Assembly (NCBI GenBank): GCA_002803225.1
Contig: NXFV01001780.1
Coordinates: 18,009-82,008, forward strand
Direction: 5' to 3'
DNA: 64,000 nt
Source of the DNA: Gamarada debralockiae
Lineage: Eukaryota > Ascomycota > Leotiomycetes > Helotiales > Hyphodiscaceae
The translations under genes were made by a program, and so were the position numbers. Below, piece by piece: positions 9,605 to 10,719 of this stretch. How positions within the stretch are numbered: the first letter of the stretch is position 1; the number at the start of each line of letters is the position of its first letter. The notes beneath the pieces are model-generated. The model was not told the DNA's origin. It saw nothing but the letters and a program-made list of their open reading frames with translations, and made no database searches.

Positions 9605-10556
9605 TTTTTGAACAATCTGAAAATAGAGAAATTTCAGGAAAAGGATGACATCCTCAGAAGAGGGTTCAAACCTTCAAAAGATCCCGTGCGATCCCCTGTT
9701 CCAGGCAGACGGTAGCTGGCTGCTGAGGTGACACCTGTCGGCTGAATGATCTTCGAAAATTTGACGGGAACGCGGGAGGGCTAAGAGCTTATTTCCCGCA
9801 GCATCAAAATAGGAGAATAACGAAAATGTCCCCTGACTTTGGATATGAAAAAGGAGAAAGAGAAGAAAGAAATACGCTGTGGGAGATTTCTCATTCCTAA
9901 ATATTAACTTGGTCTGAATCCAGCTCCCAAGGTGGATGTCTCAGCCATCAGCATCACATCCAAGCTACACCACCTCTTTGCTCTCCATAGTAATGTTTCA
10001 TCCAATCAATGGTCCACGTGTAGGCAGTCGAGTCAGATGTTTGGGGGGCAAAAAGGACATGCTCCTATTTTCTTATTCTTACTCCTTCTACTCCCCTCAA
10101 CATTTTACGAGCTCTCACAAATAGGGGTGCACGCGACCATTCTCTTTCGTAGTGATGACAAGTTGGTGAGGATCGTGAGCCTCGATCTGGTGGTGGATGT
10201 CGTGTAGCCTGATGTGGCCATATGAAGCCTGTGAAAATGCATGCGGGTACTGGGATTTGGCCGATGGTGGTGGTGACATCTGCTGCCTCAACCAATTTTG
10301 GGATATCTCCTTTGCGATGTAGCAAGCACTTTCCATAGCCGGTGATGTCAGAGTGAGATAAGAGGAAAAATAATTATCAACGTGCAGCTGAAGATCGTAA
10401 AATATGTTTCTGGAAGGCCTCCGTGCGCAATCAGCGGGAAGACGGGACCCTACACTAACCCAAAGCAGCGAATCAAGGGCCGTCCCTTTCGGACTTGGAC
10501 AAATATCTTTATATATTCAAATAAGACAAAATTTTCCAATCAAACACCACATCTCA
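9605..10556. other. Intergenic region
   Basis: It holds the endopolyphosphatase promoter and the 5' flank of the tRNA gene. A TATATATT-type AT-rich block at about 10509-10518 lies some 40-50 bp before the tRNA, where TFIIIB usually binds. Several ORFs of 60-90 codons look random. Confidence 0.5.
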
Positions 10557-10703
10557 GGCGCGATGGCAGAGCGGTCTAATGCGATGTAAGTATCACTGGG
10601 AGCATTTTCTGAAAGCAGAAACTAACCCTTATCAGAGACTAGAACTACTCAAAGTTGTCATCTATTCTCTTCGGAGGCGCAGGTTCAAATCCTGCTCGCG
10701 TCG
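10557..10703 (+). tRNA. tRNA-Ser(AGA) with canonical intron plus an extra spliceosomal-type insertion
   Basis: The acceptor stem GGCGCGA (10557-10563) pairs with TCGCGTC (10696-10702), and discriminator G is at 10703 as in serine tRNAs. The A box is TGGCAGAGCGG and the B box GGTTCAAATCC. The long variable arm is CTC-TTCG-GAG (10667-10676) and the T stem GCAGG/CCTGC. The anticodon stem ATAGA/TCTAT forms only if 10586-10635 is removed: A-T at 10584-10585, AGA at 10636-10638, TCTAT at 10661-10665. The loop is then C-T-AGA-A-A with anticodon AGA at 10641-10643. A 15-nt intron (10645-10659) sits after position 37, the normal site. The mature length is 147-50-15 = 82 nt, the usual tRNA-Ser size. 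Confidence 0.88.
10586..10635 (+). other. 50-nt spliceosomal-intron-like insertion inside the tRNA gene
   Basis: The insertion starts GTAAGTAT (ideal fungal 5' splice site), has ACTAACCC 10-15 nt before its end (ideal branch site) and ends TTATCAG. It lies between tRNA positions 28 and 29, inside the 5' strand of the anticodon stem, not at the canonical 37/38 site. Exact GT-to-AG removal gives five Watson-Crick pairs in that stem. Its size and signals match the introns of the surrounding protein genes. Confidence 0.8.
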
Positions 10704-10713
10704 CAAAGAATAA

Positions 10714-10719
10714 TTTTTT
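10714..10719 (+). terminator. RNA polymerase III terminator of tRNA-Ser
   Basis: A run of six T residues begins 11 bp after the discriminator base, the standard Pol III stop signal. This supports Pol III transcription of the tRNA gene. Confidence 0.8.

Follow-up and report, generated by a model that had tools for sequence, protein, structure and literature searches.

Within the 64,000-nt stretch of Gamarada debralockiae DNA analysed here (the window), a tRNA-Ser(AGA) gene is best read as carrying two introns of unlike kind: a 50-nt U2-type spliceosomal intron between positions 28 and 29 and an ordinary 15-nt tRNA-endonuclease intron at 37/38 (Table 1). This reading, proposed in an earlier note on the same DNA, is supported by the present analysis. 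The note had expected a single oddity; instead, the window gene is one of at least 18 predicted nuclear tRNA genes that share 29 spliceosomal-type introns across the genome. We consider it very likely that Pol III pre-tRNAs in this fungus are cleared of introns by the spliceosome and then by the tRNA endonuclease, and that the window gene, with its two kinds of intron, is functional. From sequence features we infer the function of the gene, its transcription by Pol III, the spliceosomal removal of the 50-nt insert and the order of this removal before the tRNA endonuclease.

The window gene and its spliced product

The 50-nt insert reads GTAAGTAT...ACTAAC...ATCAG; the earlier note had placed it at 10586-10635 with these letters, and both are correct. 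Removal of both introns leaves, as described there, a tRNA-Ser of 82 nt including the discriminator, whose stems (7 acceptor, 3 D, 5 anticodon and 5 T pairs) contain no mismatch and one G-U pair. The claim of a single proper fold was borne out as well, the GT-AG 50-mer being the sole best among all removals of 38-79 nt. The combination GTAAGTAT..ACTAAC occurs once in the window (average of 100 shuffles, 0.00). The gene displays the sequence hallmarks of a tRNA gene, namely a cloverleaf after splicing, identity elements, a promoter and a terminator; G73 (Ser) and G3:U70 (Ala) are tRNA identity elements. The 50-nt insert at 28/29 shows neither the BHB nor the 37/38 position of a tRNA-endonuclease intron, whereas the 15-nt intron agrees by position. 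ARAGORN and Rfam (at gathering score) returned no match anywhere in the window.

Table 1. Parts assigned to the tRNA-Ser(AGA) gene, in window positions
Feature	Position	Strand	Remarks
AAATAAG upstream element	10519..10525	+	38 nt 5' of the tRNA; presumed Pol III promoter element
Exon 1 of tRNA-Ser(AGA)	10557..10585	+	runs to position 28; A box intact
Spliceosomal-type intron, 50 nt, at 28/29	10586..10635	+	donor GTAAGT, acceptor CAG; single best removal
CTAAC branch-site match	10622..10626	+	adenosine 10 nt from the AG end
Exon 2 of tRNA-Ser(AGA), AGACTAGAA	10636..10644	+	anticodon AGA
Canonical tRNA intron, 15 nt, at 37/38	10645..10659	+	equivalent place in the C197 copy (17 nt)
Exon 3 of tRNA-Ser(AGA)	10660..10703	+	variable arm, B box, acceptor; discriminator G73 at 10703
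T6 run	10714..10719	+	presumed Pol III terminator

Split tRNA genes across the assembly

Split genes were collected from the assembly (54.3 Mb, 1112 contigs) by several routes. The RF00005 profile search gave scores to 63 of 1952 candidates, of which 25 were listed: ten uninterrupted tRNA genes, also found by ARAGORN, six hits on C63, two on C68, a degenerate Trp copy (C810), an unreadable hit (C460) and five split genes (C491 Ile, C600 iMet, C466 Arg-TCG, C606 Thr and C71 Arg-ACG). Separately, we observed that C63:51500-52603 holds seven clustered tRNA genes in AT-rich, organelle-like DNA that is probably mitochondrial, and that C68 (L019 1501-2516) carries about four tRNA-like units in tandem, with long inserts separating D-arm-like from T-arm-like parts.

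Combined patterns of branch site, AG and one internal box (B or A) returned 18, 12, 9, 5 and 11 rows. Backward controls of the CTAAC-plus-box patterns were larger (29, 26, 27, 34 and 38), and the genes therefore rest on structure, not on pattern counts. Six genes were read from these patterns: C304 Gly-CCC, C872 Ala-TGC, C916 Ala-CGC, C593 Arg-TCG, C1016 Trp and C437 Cys. The patterns also matched C870, C197, C466 and C491, the introns of C466 and C491 being noticed only upon this match; the remaining rows were not tRNA genes or were unreadable.

A census by AAATAAG plus an A box, with no splice signal in the pattern, gave 23 rows against 7 in the control, and all 23 were examined. Nine are split tRNA genes (C187 Lys, C197, C606, C649 Leu, C770 Ser-TGA, C841 Glu, C870, C984 Ser-GCT and C1016), C462 is an intronless Ser-GCT-like copy with a T arm defective by eye, and 13 are not recognisable; none of the 23 rows parses as an uninterrupted tRNA without removal. 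In C82 and C701, two similar stretches contain AAATAAG and an A-box-like sequence but give no tRNA parse; they are perhaps a tRNA-derived repeat. Altogether 17 introns in 11 genes (C197, C606, C466, C600, C491, C71, C187, C649, C770, C841 and C984) belong to genes first listed without a splice signal.

Gene and intron counts are lower bounds, and five places unclear by eye (C160, C991, C14, C462:168974 and C1052) were not counted. Ten split genes carry one spliceosomal-type intron, five carry two and three (Trp, Arg-ACG and Ser-GCT) carry three. Twelve amino-acid identities are represented: Ser, Gly, Ala, Trp, Arg, Thr, initiator Met, Cys, Ile, Lys, Leu and Glu. Introns occur in the acceptor, D, anticodon, variable and T arms, and internal exons are as short as 9 to 11 nt (Ala-CGC, Arg-ACG and Lys). 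The canonical 37/38 intron is also present in 15 of the 17 split genes with parsed models.

Models were evaluated with a matcher built for this analysis that scores stems and conserved bases; it parsed 8 of 10 uninterrupted tRNA genes, missing iMet (A54) and Gly-TCC. In a first set of 13 models, 12 parse, 11 without stem mismatch and Thr with one, while iMet lies outside the matcher. Five further genes parse in a second set, four without mismatch and Lys with one. For Ala-TGC, a lower-scoring parse without any removal exists too.

Intron boundaries and splice signals

To examine boundaries, each intron start was allowed to move by up to 45 nt in both directions, at lengths of 38-71 nt and with the other introns fixed. 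GT-AG was among the structure-best solutions in 25 of 28 introns (about one expected), although the AG end is not independent in introns found through the CTAAC..AG pattern. For the three exceptions (Trp intron 2, Thr and Ser-GCT intron 2), another boundary scores slightly above GT-AG. Ser-GCT intron 1 has two equal acceptors, giving 44 or 52 nt, and was taken as 52 nt because of the branch distance.

The 29 introns measure 47-59 nt (median 52), with G at +5 in 28 and the branch adenosine 9-15 nt from the end. The donor consensus is accompanied by CTRAY at a normal distance (CTAAC at 10 nt in the window gene), and 4 of the 29 sites depart from CTRAY (Trp intron 3, iMet, Cys intron 2 and Leu); such signals, at boundaries defined by structure, are those of U2-type introns. 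The earlier note had likened the end and ACTAAC signals of the window insert to those of mRNA introns. In the whole set, donor, branch site and spacing resemble those of mRNA introns: 13 predicted in the window are 44-56 nt long with branch distances of 9-18 nt. To predict the mRNA introns, open frames were connected where donor, CTRAY and YAG filters allowed; this gave 15 candidates for 14 frame pairs, two of which, 95 and 98 nt long, were left out of the comparison. The agreement in motifs is therefore partly built in. The short CTAAC introns, together with ERB1 as the best structure match, suggest a filamentous ascomycete.

When donor and branch filters were applied automatically, 15 of the 17 split regions yielded a parse; the two that escaped, Trp and Cys, each contain one weak branch site. 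With up to two removals allowed, the same kind of parse appeared in none of 510 shuffles or 948 real tiles; with up to three, none appeared among 1020 shuffles or 948 tiles. Bacterial, archaeal and viral records contributed 233 chance matches, of which none gave an intron-removed parse and one (L170) holds an intact tRNA. A chance origin of the split genes is rejected on the strength of the shuffles, the real tiles and the boundary test.

The BHB geometry that we take to apply has a 4-bp central helix, and this fits none of the 29 inserts, though the chance expectation is merely 0.57. That the inserts are ectopic tRNA-endonuclease introns of this kind, as in some archaea, red algae and nucleomorphs, is scarcely credible for further reasons: their ends are GT and AG, a motif like a branch site lies at an almost constant distance, and several inserts fall inside the T loop. 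What speaks for such introns is that canonical introns coexist in these genes and that ectopic introns are known in the anticodon, D and T arms of nucleomorphs and Cyanidioschyzon (PMC4090602 and PMC3978253, both in excerpt).

Spliceosomal-type introns that are numerous, similar in length and spread over many genes could also be recent copies of an introner-like element, an idea raised in the earlier note together with a search for other copies of the 50 nt. Many near-identical copies were not found. At E<=0.001, a 181-base query holding the insert matched the two Ser loci and nothing else. Pairwise identity among the introns, in gapped alignments that include the shared ends, is at most 0.71 (median 0.59), a comparison whose scope is recent copies. 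We regard an origin as recent introner-like copies as very improbable.

Transcription signals

An exact AAATAAG lies at -31 to -39 in 8 of the 13 split genes that had been found without it (background, 8 in 105,300 positions), compared with 0 of 10 uninterrupted genes (Fisher p 0.003). Among the latter, AAATAAG stands further upstream in His (-53) and iMet (-56), and Lys has a form with one mismatch at -38. Downstream, a run of at least five T lies within 50 nt 3' of 15 of the 18 split genes, where the flank background is 0.035; Ser C197, iMet and Lys have no T5 run within 50 nt behind the gene, and Lys lacks T4 as well.

With A- and B-box limits that we assume for these genes, an intron breaks one of the boxes in 8 of 18: the B box in five (Arg-ACG, Lys, Leu, Ser-TGA and Ser-GCT) and the A box in three (Gly, Ala-CGC and Arg C593). 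We infer that an upstream Pol III element makes the internal boxes partly dispensable. The broken boxes would suit genes that are spliced by the spliceosome yet transcribed by Pol II, but this alternative is most unlikely given the T runs just behind most of the genes. Runs of more than four T are also absent from 28 of the 29 tRNA introns (the Leu intron has T5), which points away from Pol II, though they are likewise absent from 13 of 13 mRNA introns.

Split and intronless copies

The earlier note had allowed for an interrupted pseudogene with intact copies supplying the tRNA. The spliced 82-mer, searched at E<=10, found only two loci in the assembly, the window and C197, both split, although a Ser(AGA) copy that is strongly diverged or in an assembly gap could escape this search. 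A 31-base pattern of the Ser 3' half, with up to 3 mismatches, gave the same two places and no match in viral contigs. Neither search detected an intact Ser(AGA) gene in the assembly that could supply the tRNA, since both loci found are split. The C197 gene has its own 50-nt insert at 26/27 (GTTCGT...CTAAC...CAG), 2 nt away from the insert site of the window gene, and a 17-nt canonical intron. The acceptor stems of the two copies differ by paired changes, GGCGCGA/TCGCGTC in C197 against GGCGAAA/TTTCGTC in the window, and this covariation speaks against the pseudogene.

For the set as a whole, the proposal that insertions have killed the split copies can point to identities that also have uninterrupted genes, e.g., Cys, Lys and iMet. 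However, the lack of an intact Ser(AGA) gene, the compensating changes between the two Ser copies, the near-complete parsing of the first model set, mostly without mismatch, and the upstream element and T run kept by most split genes make it extremely unlikely. Furthermore, for Trp (C810), Ser-GCT (C462) and U6 (C507) it is the copy lacking introns that looks degraded.

Uninterrupted relatives align with the spliced models. The alignment of spliced Trp (C1016) with the intronless C810:5613-5684 runs through the three junctions and shows two substitutions and a single deletion, and gap-free alignments through the junctions were obtained for spliced iMet with C868 and, leaving out the canonical intron, for spliced Lys with C1087. 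The RF00026 search listed three places, two above the cut-off. A U6 gene at C1066:53003-53125 (minus strand) reads by eye as U6 only when a 55-nt and a 52-nt GT-AG intron are taken out, and C507 is an intronless, diverged U6. Because C810 is degenerate and fails the matcher and C507 is diverged, degraded copies can be the intronless ones, and intronless copies could be processed copies.

Discussion

In the mechanism that we propose, Pol III would start at the upstream AAATAAG/TATA-like element plus the remaining internal boxes and stop at the T run. The spliceosome would take out the GT-AG introns in the nucleus, after which the tRNA would fold, have its ends trimmed and be modified; tRNA endonuclease and ligase would act last, on the 37/38 intron where present. 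The spliceosome is placed first because, in the window gene, the mature anticodon stem becomes continuous only once the 50-nt intron has been removed.

Of the nuclear tRNA genes recognisable in this genome (18 split, 10 uninterrupted), most are probably in pieces, with an upstream element replacing interrupted internal boxes and translation dependent on the spliceosome. This dependence would be direct if Pol III tRNA transcripts carry between one and three spliceosomal introns, placed almost anywhere along them: with many tRNA genes interrupted by mRNA-type introns, making tRNAs probably needs the mRNA-splicing machinery, and the tRNA supply would hinge on it. If true, spliceosomes would routinely process Pol III pre-tRNAs with internal exons of 9 to 11 nt, and these genes would offer a system for intron gain in which structure, not reading frame, fixes exon boundaries. 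The data also suggest that an internal promoter becomes breakable once an upstream element takes over. Since standard tRNA finders such as ARAGORN and Rfam miss such genes, similar ones may lie unnoticed in other genomes.

In a literature search with limited coverage of subscription papers and preprints, we found no published report of spliceosomal introns in tRNA genes. The closest systems concern other RNAs or other introns. As of 2017, U3 and U6 were called the only small structured RNAs known as often interrupted, and mRNA-type introns are known from fungal U6 snRNA and U3 snoRNA genes (PMC5832005, in excerpt); the U6 cases, together with the U6 introns read here, provide a precedent for spliceosomal splicing of a Pol III transcript. 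Shared with the present case is the presence of U2-type introns in genes for small structured RNAs, among them U6, a Pol III RNA that has two introns here; the difference is that the present hosts are tRNA genes with up to three introns apiece. Lichen fungal rDNA likewise has spliceosomal introns in a non-mRNA transcript, and a 57-bp one was removed from Pol I rRNA in yeast (PMC8527467, in excerpt), but the host there is rRNA, not tRNA. Cyanidioschyzon merolae has disruptions in 34 of its 43 nuclear tRNA genes (PMC3978253, in excerpt), and its genes and those of nucleomorphs resemble the present ones in having several introns per tRNA gene at non-canonical places; their introns differ, having BHB motifs and being removed by tRNA endonuclease, or being very short inserts (excerpts of PMC3978253 and PMC4090602). 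Finally, canonical 37/38 introns are present here too, and the 50-nt insert differs from them in its place and in its mRNA-intron signals.
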